This document shows positions 37,892-42,542 of a stretch of 64,000 nucleotides of DNA, piece after piece; within the stretch, counting starts at the first letter, position 1, and each line of letters opens with the position of its first letter. This DNA comes from Polyangium spumosum (GTDB lineage: Bacteria; Myxococcota_A; Polyangia; Polyangiales; Polyangiaceae), in NCBI RefSeq assembly GCF_009649845.1, contig NZ_WJIE01000003.1:186001-250000 (forward strand), in the 5' to 3' direction. A program made the position numbers and the translations under genes. The notes beneath the pieces are model-generated. The model had not been told where the DNA came from. It made no database searches and was given only the letters and a program-made list of their open reading frames with translations.

Positions 37892-38247
37892 TGCTTCCTC
37901 CTCAGCTATGGATCGAGGCGCGTTGCCGGGAACGAGCCTCGCCTTTGGTGCGTCCCGGTGCACGCTGCGGGCCACGAGGGCTGTGCAGGTCGGACCCTGC
38001 ACGTCCAGACGGGCGACCCGGACCCGAGGGATGTAACGAGGGCGGATGGCGGCCGCGCGAGGCGCGTGGTCAAGGAGCACGGCGGCGCGAGGGCGGGTGT
38101 CAAGCCTTTCTTGTTGCCGCCCGGGGGGCTTCGGGCAGAGAGTAGACGGAGCGACGCGCAGGCCTCGGGAGGGGCGCGGATCCAGGGCAGCGGAACCGCG
38201 AGGGGGTGGAGGCCGTAGTTGGTGGACCAAGGATCGAGGAGCAGACG
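37892..38247. promoter_or_regulatory. Divergent upstream region of the barrel gene and the MNIO cassette (356 bp)
   Basis: It contains a perfect dyad, GTGCAGG (37983-37989) with a 6-nt spacer and CCTGCAC (37996-38002), in the middle of the region, as expected for a regulator site acting on one or both genes. No further gene is supported. Confidence 0.45.
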
Positions 38248-38640
38248 ATGAACGCGAAGAGCATTTACGAGACCCTCGCGGCGCTCGGCGCGAGCGCGAT
38301 GATCGCCGGTTGTGCCGGGACGCAGGAGCCGGTGAAGGCCGCGGAGGAGCCGCAGGCCGAGGCGCCCGCAGAGGCCGCGCCGGCAGAGAAGACCGAGGAG
38401 GCGGCGGGGACGGAGGCCGCAGGGGCGACGAACGCGGCGGCGGCGCCCGCGGAGGCGCCGAAAGAAGCGGCGGCTCCGGCGGCGACGACGACGCCCGCGC
38501 CCGCGGCAGCGCCCGCGCCCGCAGCGACGCCGGCCCCGGCGAAGGCAGCGGCGCCGGCGCCGAAGCCCGCGGCGAAGAAGGCCGCGGCGCCCAAGAAGGC
38601 CGGCGCGGAGGCGGCCTGCGGCGAAGGATCCTGCGCGTAG
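38248..38640 (+). CDS. Putative MNIO-modified RiPP precursor (lipoprotein-type signal, C-terminal Cys motif)
   Basis: 130 residues from the ATG at 38248, with GAGGAG six bases upstream. The signal peptide has a lipobox Met-Ile-Ala-Gly-Cys (C22). Residues of about 25-118 are low-complexity Ala/Pro/Glu/Lys. The last residues are Cys124-Gly-Glu-Gly-Ser-Cys129-Ala. This tail resembles the Glu-Gly-Lys-Cys-Gly repeats of precursors modified by DUF692 enzymes (bufferin/HvfA type), where cysteines are oxidised to metal-binding heterocycles. It lies 3 bp before the DUF692 gene. Substrate status is inferred from tail and position; it is not a known DUF2282 precursor. Confidence 0.7.
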   Translation: MNAKSIYETLAALGASAMIAGCAGTQEPVKAAEEPQAEAPAEAAPAEKTEEAAGTEAAGATNAAAAPAEAPKEAAAPAATTTPAPAAAPAPAATPAPAKAAAPAPKPAAKKAAAPKKAGAEAACGEGSCA

Positions 38641-38643
38641 AGG

Positions 38644-39519
38644 GTGGCTCTCGGGACGATGATCACAGGGGTCGGGCTGGGGCTCCGGTTCGACTTCCTC
38701 GACGACGTGCTCGCGCGGGTCGAGGCGGACGCGCCGCTCGGCCCCGTGCGTTTTTTCGAGGTCGCGCCGGAGAACTACATGCGCCGGGGCGGGTTCATCC
38801 CGGCGGCGCTCGAGCGGATCGCCGCGCGTTTTCCGCTGCTCTCGCACGGCCTGTCGATGTCGCTCGGCGGGCTCGATCCCTTCGATGACGCCTACATGCG
38901 CGAGCTCGCCGCGTTCACGCGGAGGTTCGGCGTGCCGTTCCACTCGGATCACCTGTGTTTCTCGGGGATACGAGGGCGGATGGCGCACGAGCTCTTGCCG
39001 CTTCCGCTGACGGTCGGGGCCGCGAAGTACGTGGCCTCGCGCGCGCGGGAGGCCGAGGATCGGCTCGGCGTGCCGATGGTGGTCGAGAACATCACGCGGT
39101 ACGTCGTGCCGGGCAGGCCCGAGCTCGGCGAGGCGGCGTTCCTCGCGGAGGTGCTCGATCGTTCGGGGTCGAAGCTCCTGCTCGACGTGAACAACGTGTT
39201 CGTGAACGCGATCAACGATGGGCAGGATCCGCTCGTGTTCCTCGCGGAGATCCCGCTCGATCGGGTGGCCGCGATCCACGTGGCGGGCCACGAGAAGCGC
39301 GCCGGGACGGACCTCGTCATCGACACGCACGGCGCGGACGTGGTGGGCGAGGTGCTGTCGTTGCTCACGTGGACCGTCGAGCGGACGGGGCCCGTGCCGG
39401 TGGTGCTGGAGCGGGATCACGCGATCCCGCCGCTCGACGAGCTGCTCGCGGAGGTCACGCGCGTGGAGGCGGCCTACCAGGCAGGGCTCGCGGCGTGGGA
39501 GGCGCGGGATCGTGGTTGA
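38644..39519 (+). CDS. MNIO (DUF692) multinuclear non-haem iron oxidative enzyme
   Basis: 291 residues from a GTG at 38644; the ATG at 38659 ([10 protein letters not shown]) is equally likely. TIM-barrel DUF692 motifs carrying iron ligands are all visible: Phe-Glu-Val-Ala-Pro-Glu-Asn-Tyr, Ser-His-Gly-Leu-Ser-Met, His-Ser-Asp-His-Leu-Cys, Val-Glu-Asn-Ile, Leu-Asp-Val-Asn-Asn, His-Val-Ala-Gly-His, Asp-Thr-His-Gly and Leu-Glu-Arg-Asp. Characterised members (MbnB, bufferin enzymes) convert Cys in a peptide to oxazolone/thioamide or thiooxazole using two or three irons. The coupled DUF2063 gene overlaps its end. Confidence 0.9.
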
Positions 39520-40306
39520 AGAGGAGGAGGGGCGGGCCGCGATCGCGGAGGTCGCGGAGGTGTTCGCGGCGGTCGTGCAGGGTCCGCCGGAGGACGGGCG
39601 CGTCGGGATTTACAGGTCGCTCGTTCGGCGCGGGATCGTGTCGGCGGTGCGGGCGCAGATGCCACGCACGGCGCGAGCGCTCGGGGCGCGGTTCGAGGCG
39701 ACCGTCGATCGATGGCTCGACGAGGCGCTGCCGAGCTCGCCGTACCTGCGCGACGCGGCGGCCGAGCTCGTCGGCTGGGCGGCGCCGCGCTGGGCGGAGG
39801 ATCCCGCGGTTTCGCCGTGGATTCCGGATCTAGGACGTTACGAGGTCGTACGGTTCGAGGTGGCGGCGGCGCCCGCGGCGAGCCAGCCGAGCGGCGCGGC
39901 ACTCGCGCTCGATCGGGCGGTGTGTTTCGGGGCTGGGGCGCGCGTCGTTTCGTACCGGTGGGCGGTGCACAGGTGGGCGGAGGACGCGCCGGGCGCGCCC
40001 GAGGAAGAACCCACGGCCCTCCTGCTCTACCGGGACGGGGCGCACGAGGTCCGGTGCCTCGTGCTCTCGCCGCTCGCGGCCACGATCCTCGCGCGGCTCG
40101 TCGGGGGAGCGCGGCTCGGGGAGGCGGTGACGGAGGCGTGCGCGGAGCGCGGGGAGCCGCTCGGCGAGGCCGTCTTGCGCGGCACGGCGGAGGTGCTCGC
40201 GGACCTCGGGGAGCGCGGGGTGGTCCTCGGCGCGGCCGAGCACGGAAATCACGATCCGATCACGCACGCGGGGACCGAGCGCGGTATAGTCGCGGGCGAA
40301 CAATGA
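39512..40306 (+). CDS. DUF2063-type partner protein of the MNIO enzyme
   Basis: 264 residues from a GTG at 39512, which overlaps the MNIO stop by 8 bp. The N-terminal 100 residues are helical with the Tyr-Arg-Ser-Leu-Val-Arg-Arg-Gly start typical of the DUF2063 (putative DNA-binding, MbnC-like) domain. The C-terminal half is a mixed alpha/beta domain, as in MbnC-like partners that bring the precursor to the MNIO enzyme. No membrane segment. It ends 25 bp before the kinase-SUMF1 gene. Confidence 0.75.
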
Positions 40307-40331
40307 GCCGAAGGCACCTCAGCGTTTGCCC

Positions 40332-42542
40332 ATGACGACGAGCCAGCAAAACGACCCGCTCGGCATCACGGGGACGATCCTCGCCGAGAAATACCGGATC
40401 GACTCGATGATCGGCGAGGGTGGCTTCAGCGTCGTCTACCGCGCCGAGCACCTCATCTGGCAGCAGCCGGTCGCGATCAAGTGCTTCCGCATCCTCGCGC
40501 AGGCGCCCGAGAACAAGCGCGACGAGCTGCTCGACGGCTTCATCCAGGAGGGCCGCCTGCTCGCGAGCCTGTCGAGCCGCTCGGCGGCGATCGTGCAAGC
40601 GCGCGACATCGGCAAGTTCACGACCGCGGACGGGATGTGGATCCCGTACATGGTGCTCGAGTGGCTCGAGGGCAAGACGCTCGATCACGTGCTCTTCGAG
40701 GAGCGCGTCGCGGGCGCGAAGCCGCGCGAGATCCACGAGGCGCTCGCGTTGCTCGAGCCGGTCGCGGTGGCGCTGGAGATCGCGCACGCGAAGAACATCG
40801 CGCACCGCGACATCAAGCCCGCGAACGTCTTCGTCATCGGCGACCCGCGCGGGGCCTCGCCGTTCACGAAGATCCTCGACTTCGGCATCGCGAAGGTGAT
40901 GGCCGATCACGCGGCGGCGACGGCCGAGCTCGCGCAGACGGGCAAGGAGATCACGGCGTTCACCCCGAACTACGGGGCGCCCGAGCAGTTCAGCCGATCG
41001 TACGGCGCGACGGGGCCGTGGACCGACGTGTTCGCGATGGCGCTCATCGTGGTCGAGGTGCTGCGCGGCGGGATCCCGGCGTTCGAGGGGGACGACTTCA
41101 TCCAGTTCGCGGTCGCGAGCCGCGATCCGACCCGCAGGCCGACGCCGCGCACGCTCGGCGTGCCCGTCTCGCCCGAGGTCGAGGCGGTGTTCGAGAAGGC
41201 GCTCGCGGTCGCGCCGACCGATCGGTATCCGTCGATGGGCCGCTTCTGGGCCGCGCTGCACGAGGCGGTGTTCCCGGACATCGCGTGGAACCCGGGGACG
41301 ACGAGCGGCGTGTCGTCGTCGATCACGTCGTCGCCGGGCGGCAGGAGCGCGTCACGCGCGAGCATGCCGGGCCCGCTGCAGGAGACGCTGCCGCGCCCGA
41401 GCGGCGGGACGGCGATGATGGAGGGAGCGCCGTCCTTGCCGGCGCTGCCGGGGCCGACGCAGAACGCGCCGCAAGCGCCGTTCACCGGCCCTGTGCCGAT
41501 GGCGACGAGCAACACGGACCGCGCGCCGGTCGCGGATCAAGGCAAGGGGCTGATGGCGTTCGCGGCCGTCGCGGCGATCGCGCTGCTCGGCGGGAGCTTC
41601 GCGGCGTACAAGATGTTCACGAAGCCCGCGGGCAACACGCCTACGGTGGGATCGAGCGCGCCCGTGGCGAGCGCTCTGCCGAGCGCGAGCGCGTCGGTGA
41701 TGGCGACGGCGGCGCGGCCGACGGAGTGCCCGGCGGGGATGGTGCTCGTGCCGGGCGGCAAGTTCTTCATGGGCTCGGACGAACCGTCGTTCAAGCTGTG
41801 GCAACCGGCGCACAAGGTCATCCTCGACACGTTCTGCGTCGACCTGCACGAGGTGACGGCGGCCGAGTACAAGGAGTGCTCGGACCAGGGCGAATGCAAG
41901 CGCCCGGAGGCCGCGCCGAACTGGCCGAAGGTCGCGGGCAGCACGGACGAGGAGCACGAGAAGAAGCGCGAGGCATACGCGGAGCTCTGCACGTTCGGCA
42001 AGGCGGGCCGCGAGAGCCACCCGGTCAACTGCGTGAGCTGGTTCCAGGCCGACGGGTACTGCAAGTGGCGCAAGAAGCGCCTGCCCACGGAGGCGGAGTG
42101 GGAGTACGCGGCGCGTGGCTCCGACGGGCGCAAGTTCCCCTGGGGCGACGACGACGCCGCGGCGGGGCACATGAACGCGGGCGGCAAGGAGTGGGCGGCG
42201 TGGGAGAAGGCGCAGGGCCTCAAGCTCACGGGCACGCTCTACGACATCGACGACGGCTACGCGGGCACGGCGCCGGTGGGCAGCTTCCCGAAGGGCAAGA
42301 CGCGCTTCGGCGCGGACGACTTCGTGGGCAACGTGTGGGAGTGGACCGCGGACTGGTACGAGACGTACAAGGCCGAGGAGGAGATCAACCCGAAGGGCGC
42401 GCCCGCGGGTGATCGGAAGGCGATCCGCGGCGGCGGCTTCAACGGCGGCGTGTTGCTGTGGCTCAATCCTGCGATGCGGTTCCACCAGGTGCCGGACGCG
42501 ACGACGCCGGTGATCGGGTTCCGCTGCGTGATGAACCTTTGA
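40332..42542 (+). CDS. Ser/Thr kinase - transmembrane - SUMF1 (FGE-like) fusion
   Basis: 736 residues from the ATG at 40332. The kinase domain spans about residues 18-310, with Gly-Glu-Gly-Gly-Phe-Ser, Val-Ala-Ile-Lys, His-Arg-Asp-Ile-Lys-Pro-Ala-Asn, Asp-Phe-Gly-Ile-Ala and Ala-Pro-Glu intact. A transmembrane helix lies near 400-420, a Ser/Ala linker near 425-460, and an SUMF1 domain runs from about 465 to the end (Gly-Asn-Val-Trp-Glu-Trp; Arg-Gly-Gly-Gly-Phe; Gly-Phe-Arg-Cys). The paired copper-binding cysteines expected after Arg-Gly-Gly-Gly-Phe are absent, so it is probably a binding module and not a formylglycine generator. It sits 25 bp after the MNIO cassette, possibly on the same transcript. 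Confidence 0.9.
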   Translation: MTTSQQNDPLGITGTILAEKYRIDSMIGEGGFSVVYRAEHLIWQQPVAIKCFRILAQAPENKRDELLDGFIQEGRLLASLSSRSAAIVQARDIGKFTTADGMWIPYMVLEWLEGKTLDHVLFEERVAGAKPREIHEALALLEPVAVALEIAHAKNIAHRDIKPANVFVIGDPRGASPFTKILDFGIAKVMADHAAATAELAQTGKEITAFTPNYGAPEQFSRSYGATGPWTDVFAMALIVVEVLRGGIPAFEGDDFIQFAVASRDPTRRPTPRTLGVPVSPEVEAVFEKALAVAPTDRYPSMGRFWAALHEAVFPDIAWNPGTTSGVSSSITSSPGGRSASRASMPGPLQETLPRPSGGTAMMEGAPSLPALPGPTQNAPQAPFTGPVPMATSNTDRAPVADQGKGLMAFAAVAAIALLGGSFAAYKMFTKPAGNTPTVGSSAPVASALPSASASVMATAARPTECPAGMVLVPGGKFFMGSDEPSFKLWQPAHKVILDTFCVDLHEVTAAEYKECSDQGECKRPEAAPNWPKVAGSTDEEHEKKREAYAELCTFGKAGRESHPVNCVSWFQADGYCKWRKKRLPTEAEWEYAARGSDGRKFPWGDDDAAAGHMNAGGKEWAAWEKAQGLKLTGTLYDIDDGYAGTAPVGSFPKGKTRFGADDFVGNVWEWTADWYETYKAEEEINPKGAPAGDRKAIRGGGFNGGVLLWLNPAMRFHQVPDATTPVIGFRCVMNL

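Follow-up and report, generated by a model that had tools for sequence, protein, structure and literature searches.

A lipoprotein-type MNIO cassette of Polyangium spumosum as a likely member of the EGKCG-type (HvfABC, oxazolin/captophorin) RiPP systems

The window, a stretch of 64,000 nucleotides from Polyangium spumosum, carries a three-gene MNIO RiPP cassette composed of an MNIO, its PME1 partner and a lipobox-bearing precursor. This cassette is likely to be the Polyangium lipoprotein form of the EGKCG-type (HvfABC, oxazolin/captophorin) MNIO RiPPs, with the chemistry, copper binding and localisation of its product predicted. The open reading frames and domain matches bear out the layout given in the initial annotation, i.e., a lipobox precursor, an MNIO starting 3 bp past its stop codon and a DUF2063 gene overlapping the MNIO 3' end by 8 bp (Table 1). 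Its assignment as an MNIO RiPP cassette was also borne out. PF05114 (MbnB_TglH_ChrH) matched the MNIO at 3.9e-86 (289 bits, cut-off 25), and the His, Glu and Asp motifs, among which the iron-binding residues are presumptively assigned here, were invariant in an alignment with 18 homologues and aligned with those of PDB 3BWW. The partner passed the cut-offs for PF22106 NGO1945_C (2.3e-16) and PF09836 DUF2063 (2e-8). A phmmer search of the partner against solved structures gave no match at E <= 1; its AlphaFold model (mean pLDDT 87.9) had PDB 3DEE (gonococcal NGO1945) as the best Foldseek match, followed by the TglHI entries 8hi7_A and 8hci_A. The scores on the NCBIfam equivalogs were below cut-off for HvfB on the MNIO (267.8 bits, cut-off 360) and for HvfC on the partner (109 bits, cut-off 142), and the MNIO was also under the BufB cut-off.

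Table 1. Positions of the cassette features in the window and of the second precursor in the same genome
Feature	Position	Strand	Basis
Precursor lipoprotein, HvfA/oxazolin-like, 130 aa	38248..38640	+	ORF, ATG 38248, TAG 38640
Lipoprotein signal peptide MNAKSIYETLAALGASAMIAG, lipobox IAG/C (Cys22)	38248..38313	+	sequence pattern
Conserved post-lipobox segment AGTQEPVKAAEEPQAEA; PV[ND]AxEVP-like across Polyangiaceae precursors	38314..38364	+	
Ala/Pro/Glu/Lys-rich tether, 101 aa, conserved segment included	38314..38616	+	
Core CGEGSCA, two Cys expected as modification sites	38617..38637	+	
MNIO (DUF692, PF05114), HvfB-like maturase, GTG start	38644..39519	+	
HvfC-like partner (DUF2063 + NGO1945_C), GTG start	39512..40306	+	
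Second precursor, MNTKSIYETLAALGAGVMIAGC...SCGEGSCG, 140 aa	G000:C1:800882-801304 (L157:4883-5305)		tail-pattern search of own genome

The precursor is of the lipoprotein type, as had been proposed, with the lipobox I-A-G-C recognised by pattern at residues 19-22. The lipobox Cys is separated from the first tail Cys by 101 residues, so the 95-residue spacer first described was about right, and residues 23-120 include 45 Ala, 17 Pro, 11 Glu and 9 Lys. The C-terminus reads C-G-E-G-S-C-A. An intergenic block on the 5' side of the precursor (38098-38150) is conserved in five genomes of the genus, which here means the six genomes grouped with the window's own genus. In upstream alignments made to look for a promoter motif common to main and second precursors, conservation showed in the main copies; this block contains TTGACA on the minus strand, and it is possibly the promoter of a divergent outer-membrane barrel gene. 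A Ser/Thr kinase fused with an FGE-sulfatase domain (40326-42542) starts about 20 bp past the partner gene.

The initial annotation had set the conservation of a two-Cys C-terminal core as its test, and this core was found to be conserved in the Polyangiaceae. The family is represented by 108 genomes, at least 90 of which have an MNIO match; 77 loci (L003-L079), the better-scoring among the matches listed, were read, and G032:C763, which starts at a contig end, was left out. Removal of one duplicate gave 76 loci: the precursor of L044 (G059:C19) is identical to that of L045 (G030:C3) in a genome from a different genus, which is probably due to a contaminating contig in one assembly. The ORF scan required C[GS]xx[STACGN]C within the last 40 residues together with a composition filter, and thus favours the tail motif, but the controls went through the identical filter. 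A two-Cys-tail ORF, with the tail at or near the C-terminus, was present upstream of the MNIO in 70/76 loci, a count that can be read as 70/75 because the MNIO tree puts L077 on the paralogue side too. The strict tail CG[AEQPK]G[ST]C was found upstream in 66/76. Tail-bearing ORFs were absent from the antisense (0/76) and downstream (0/76) controls and from the paralogous MNIO loci (0/13), so the tail ORF does not stand next to the MNIO by chance. The paralogues (L080-L092) were set by score, and the tree agrees for L080, L081, L082, L085, L087, L088 and L090. Six loci had no tail ORF in the scanned stretch (L039, L041, L043, L067, L073 and L077); among these, the L067 precursor is displaced 2.4 kb upstream (L214), the L077 precursor is bufferin-type, and a possible L041 precursor lies elsewhere in that genome (L213). 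The commonest tail, CGAGTC, accounted for 41 of the 71 scan matches, duplicate included, and in the same set the tail was followed by a single residue in 40 and by 4 to 13 residues in the others.

A lipobox was found by script in 64 of the 77 loci, and the other thirteen comprised six without a tail ORF, four truncated at a contig end and three that the script filter missed. In the rest of the phylum, the script gave an upstream lipobox candidate in 40 of the 51 loci read, doubtful in L115, L116, L123, L151 and L152; inspection by eye added L122, L126, L128 and L140 and found none in L127, L135, L136 and L143. Outside Myxococcota, a lipobox-like Cys was seen by eye in about 3 (L254, L272 and L277) of some 39 EGKCG-like precursors. 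The tether of the Polyangiaceae precursors had a median length of 104 residues (range 85-190, n = 63). Myxobacteria are Gram-negative, and the E. coli +2 rule predicts lipoprotein sorting from the residue that follows the lipobox Cys. Because this residue was G, A, S or T in all 63 precursors (47, 13, 2 and 1, respectively; never Asp), an outer-membrane location is predicted, the face being unspecified. The surface anchoring and the wall-spanning spacer of the initial annotation would go beyond this prediction.

Within the genus, codons 1-39 of the precursor had 10 variable sites, all synonymous, in five genomes, the sixth copy being cut by a contig end. Two of the last 10 codons varied silently and one was nonsynonymous (last residue Gly or Ala), and the tether diverged in both sequence and length among the five genomes. 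Judged from these substitutions, constraint appears stronger on the leader and tail than on the tether. The motif PV[NDQKEHA][AST] was present in 44/63 precursors (3.9 on average after shuffling) and in none of 8 paralogues. The constraint extends beyond the lipobox, and the segment is possibly a recognition element that is kept on the mature product and perhaps read by the partner. Single Ala changes preceding the core did not stop FonBC (PMC12668002). The upstream gene might instead encode an ordinary lipoprotein that is no substrate, its cysteines staying free thiols or forming a disulphide, and indeed it has no known precursor domain and a low-complexity body. We consider this very improbable in view of the specific linkage to this MNIO lineage, the constraint on tail and leader, and the EGKCG repeats in relatives; an unlinked lipoprotein was likewise set aside.

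The EAACGEGSCA tail corresponds to the double EGKCG unit found in oxazolins and captophorins. Several Polyangiaceae relatives keep EGKCG (three in L017) or EGSCG/GSCG repeats in addition to a tail of this kind, with the same enzyme adjoining. The EGSCG/GSCG repeats were found in lipoprotein precursors beside this enzyme at L011 and L021 and, in the rest of the phylum, at L093, L095, L098 and L100; many precursors from the rest of the phylum have such EGSCG repeats or EASCGEGSCG-like ends (L117, L120, L131 and L133). In the tree of 78 MNIO proteins, whose labels were hand-assigned from the precursors, the window MNIO fell inside a 58-row branch (support 100/99) made of 33 EGxCG and 25 tail types; the remaining 20 rows were DUF2282/bufferin (11), other (5) and EGxCG (4). 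The tail form is polyphyletic on this tree, with 6 changes, and does not make one clade. The "distinct class" of the initial annotation was thus not supported: the core can be read as two EGKCG-type units, related precursors have EGKCG or EGSCG repeats of their own, and the tree puts the enzyme among the EGxCG types. Lipidated MNIO RiPPs, an oxazolin included, had also been reported before (PMC12636315).

The window precursor has no true repeated EGKCG but a single degenerate double unit, EAACG-EGSCA, in which the Lys that typically precedes Cys in EGKCG is replaced by Ala and Ser. It did not match the curated HvfA models (NF050137 and NF050188), which also miss L225 and, despite its three EGKCG, L017. 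On the HvfA model, the second precursor of Table 1 scored 13.6 bits (in its tail) and L093 16.6 bits (cut-off 19.5), and the EGKCG control L248 scored 53.4 bits. The window cassette gave no match to the DUF2282 or BufA2 signature, and its MNIO is in the non-bufferin branch. FonBC needs two repeats, with EAKCG-EGKCG as the minimal FonA and a -8 Da product (PMC12668002). The variants EAACGEGACG and EAKCAEGKCA, which are close to the window's EAACG-EGSCA, were accepted by FonBC, and a Glu-to-Ala change between the cysteines impaired it (PMC12668002). The Polyangiaceae enzymes must differ from FonBC, because the Ala that impairs FonBC stands between the cysteines of the commonest tail, CGAGTC (41/71).

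Two other readings of the tail were weighed against this kinship. In one, the precursor belongs to a separate RiPP class in which both tail cysteines end up in one linked or rearranged product, such as a macrocycle, instead of two independent thiooxazoles. The CxxxxC spacing in the C-terminal region would suit this reading, as would the 32/63 precursors whose only cysteines past the lipobox are those two; the other 31/63 have more, up to nine. Chryseobasin-type enzymes do macrocyclise a two-Cys C-terminal motif by MNIO (PMC12636315). This reading is nevertheless quite improbable, because the MNIO lies in the EGxCG branch and not near ChrH (28 bits on the NCBIfam ChrH model vs 268 on HvfB), a DUF2063 partner is present, and relatives have single-Cys EGKCG/EGSCG repeats beside the tail. 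Chryseobasin-type chemistry was likewise set aside.

The precursor could also belong to the published "CxxxxC" family (Antoine 2025) or "Cluster X" (Chen 2025), which are catalogued and uncharacterised. The window tail is a CxxxxC motif; members of the CxxxxC family have signal peptides and PME1 partners and come from "Pseudomonadati", the kingdom that includes Myxococcota (PMC12452194), and Cluster X consists of lipoproteins with CxxxxC (PMC12636315), so that a signal or lipoprotein peptide combined with CxxxxC is common to all of them. However, 54% of the published CxxxxC clusters have Lactamase_B_2, and their core genes include DoxX (PMC12452194), whereas in the six genomes of the genus the matches listed include no PF12706 or PF07681 in the 80 kb around the cassette on its contig, some contigs being shorter (11.6 kb in G089). 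On this comparison with the published descriptions, membership is less likely than not, though a real possibility.

Other precursors and paralogous enzymes were seen in the course of the analysis. The own genome encodes a second MNIO (G000:C10:15099-15914, L080), which falls on the bufferin side of the tree and is accompanied by a short lipoprotein precursor (CSGAKK...CKAGACSGK). Both of the MNIO pathways detected in this genome thus look lipoprotein-based. At L077, L081, L087 and L090, bufferin-like precursors (CKGxNxCKGxGGCK-like) lie beside paralogous MNIOs of the Polyangiaceae, three of the four having a lipobox; the L081 precursor scored 42 bits for BufA2 (cut-off 60). Tail-pattern matches outside the genus were read in nine stretches (L213-L221), of which six were other ORFs and L214 was the displaced precursor of L067. 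The ORFs in L221 (G070) and L213 (G020) end in CGAGSCG and have no MNIO match in the stretch fetched, the one in L221 being without a lipobox; these two are possibly further dispersed precursors.

The tail-pattern search of the own genome gave four matches, among them a second precursor that shares its leader and tail with the window precursor. No MNIO or HvfC match was found in the 10.5 kb fetched around it. Upstream on the same strand are a PF02321 outer-membrane efflux protein and a multicopper oxidase (PF07732, 2.5e-40) that ends 30 bp before the precursor, and further on the opposite strand carries a CusA/CzcA-like RND gene, cut at the stretch end and below the model cut-off. A protein search recovered seven copies of the second precursor in 6/6 genomes of the genus, ending in CGEGSC plus Gly (six) or Ser (one). 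Copper genes adjoin all seven copies: five (L208-L212) have a P-type ATPase about 415 bp downstream on the same strand with HMA and E1-E2 in every case, and two are beside multicopper oxidases, one of these (L207, G089) having them on both sides. On the copper-subfamily model TIGR01511 (cut-off 397), the three ATPases scanned against NCBIfam reached 571-582 bits. Because the ATPase context of the five copies looks to have been inherited as a single arrangement, the copies amount to three events and not seven. Three copper contexts by accident are unlikely, because the own genome (10.76 Mb) has 7 PF07732 and 2 TIGR01511 matches over cut-off; the PF07732 background was counted in the genus too. 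The test was not blind, since these copper neighbours had been noticed beforehand.

The copper neighbours of the second precursor support a copper role independently of the captophorin literature, and with 7/7 copies they favour the metal trap suggested initially. The RiPP might nevertheless be the same and its task lie with another metal or with redox or oxidative stress, copper being incidental. A search of the 64 kb window with six query proteins matched the two from the cassette itself and none of the copper proteins, and copper matches were found near few main loci overall (Cu-ATPase near L064 and L068, an HMA-sized match near L034, multicopper oxidase near L115/L116). We regard a task other than copper as improbable, because the second precursor lies beside copper genes in 7/7 copies and three different contexts, and because characterised EGKCG products are described as copper-binding (PMC12668002). 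The position of the second precursor away from any MNIO found suggests maturation in trans, and, as far as gene positions tell, the own MNIO/partner pair probably also modifies this second lipoprotein. The fuller proposal is tentative, and we give it slightly less than an even chance: one MNIO/partner pair would mature two outer-membrane lipoproteins, the second near CopA-type ATPases or multicopper oxidases, and the modified two-Cys tail on its long tether would act as a copper relay or buffer. If this is true, the precursor, rather than the enzyme, moves between copper loci, and a relay or buffer stands next to the oxidase and efflux machinery.

The following mechanism is proposed for the EGKCG-type cassette. 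In the cytoplasm, the partner would bind the precursor by its N-terminal part and present the C-terminal EAACG-EGSCA unit to the MNIO. Oxidation of both tail cysteines by this enzyme would most likely yield 5-thiooxazoles, with mass changes of -4 Da per cysteine and -8 Da in total. The product would be exported by Sec and the lipoprotein pathway, cleaved before Cys22 and lipidated on it, and Ala at position +2 predicts sorting to the outer membrane. From there, the two-site head, on its tether of about 100 residues, could range through the periplasm (or the exterior) and bind copper. In this genus the enzyme pair probably also acts in trans on the second lipoprotein, whose gene adjoins copper genes.

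Lipidation of MNIO RiPPs is already on record, for an oxazolin and a CxxxxC lipoprotein cluster among others (PMC12636315, PMC12452194). NedA, a lipidated oxazolin with -12 Da over three motifs, and DybA are lipidated products carrying the MNIO modification (PMC12636315). The window cassette resembles NedA and the DAG-RiPPs in its MNIO with a substrate-binding partner, its lipobox precursor and its EGKCG-type core; for NedA and the DAG-RiPPs, lipidation and -4 Da per motif are reported (PMC12636315). Unlike NedA, it has one C-terminal double unit with Ala and Ser in place of Lys on an Ala/Pro-rich tether of about 100 residues, a host in Myxococcota and a second substrate copy beside copper genes. 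With the captophorins (fontiphorin FonA, oxazolin HvfA and gonophorin NgoA; PMC12668002) it shares HvfB/HvfC-type proteins, and its core is close to the two-repeat minimal substrate of FonA, which itself has seven sites. Bufferins Buf1 and Buf2 are likewise Sec-exported, with an MNIO, DUF2063 and copper, and about 16% of Buf2 are predicted lipoproteins (PMC12452194), but they differ in Cys pattern and MNIO tree branch, and the bufferin-branch MNIO of the own genome (G000:C10) is separate. As far as searched, two things are new: the myxococcotal lipoprotein form, often with one C-terminal two-Cys unit on a tether of about 100 residues, and a second precursor that adjoins copper genes and lies apart from any MNIO found.

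These findings extend lipidated MNIO RiPPs to myxobacteria, in which the lipobox precursor is the common form (64/77 family loci read), and they provide natural two-site substrates of the size found to be minimal in the FonBC work. Through the dispersed second precursor, the tail is linked with copper genes on grounds other than homology, and maturation in trans becomes testable. In Myxococcus xanthus, copper accumulates at the contact with prey, where CopA, CuoA and Cus2 are up-regulated (PMC7010606). Speculatively, a membrane-tethered copper buffer could matter for predation.
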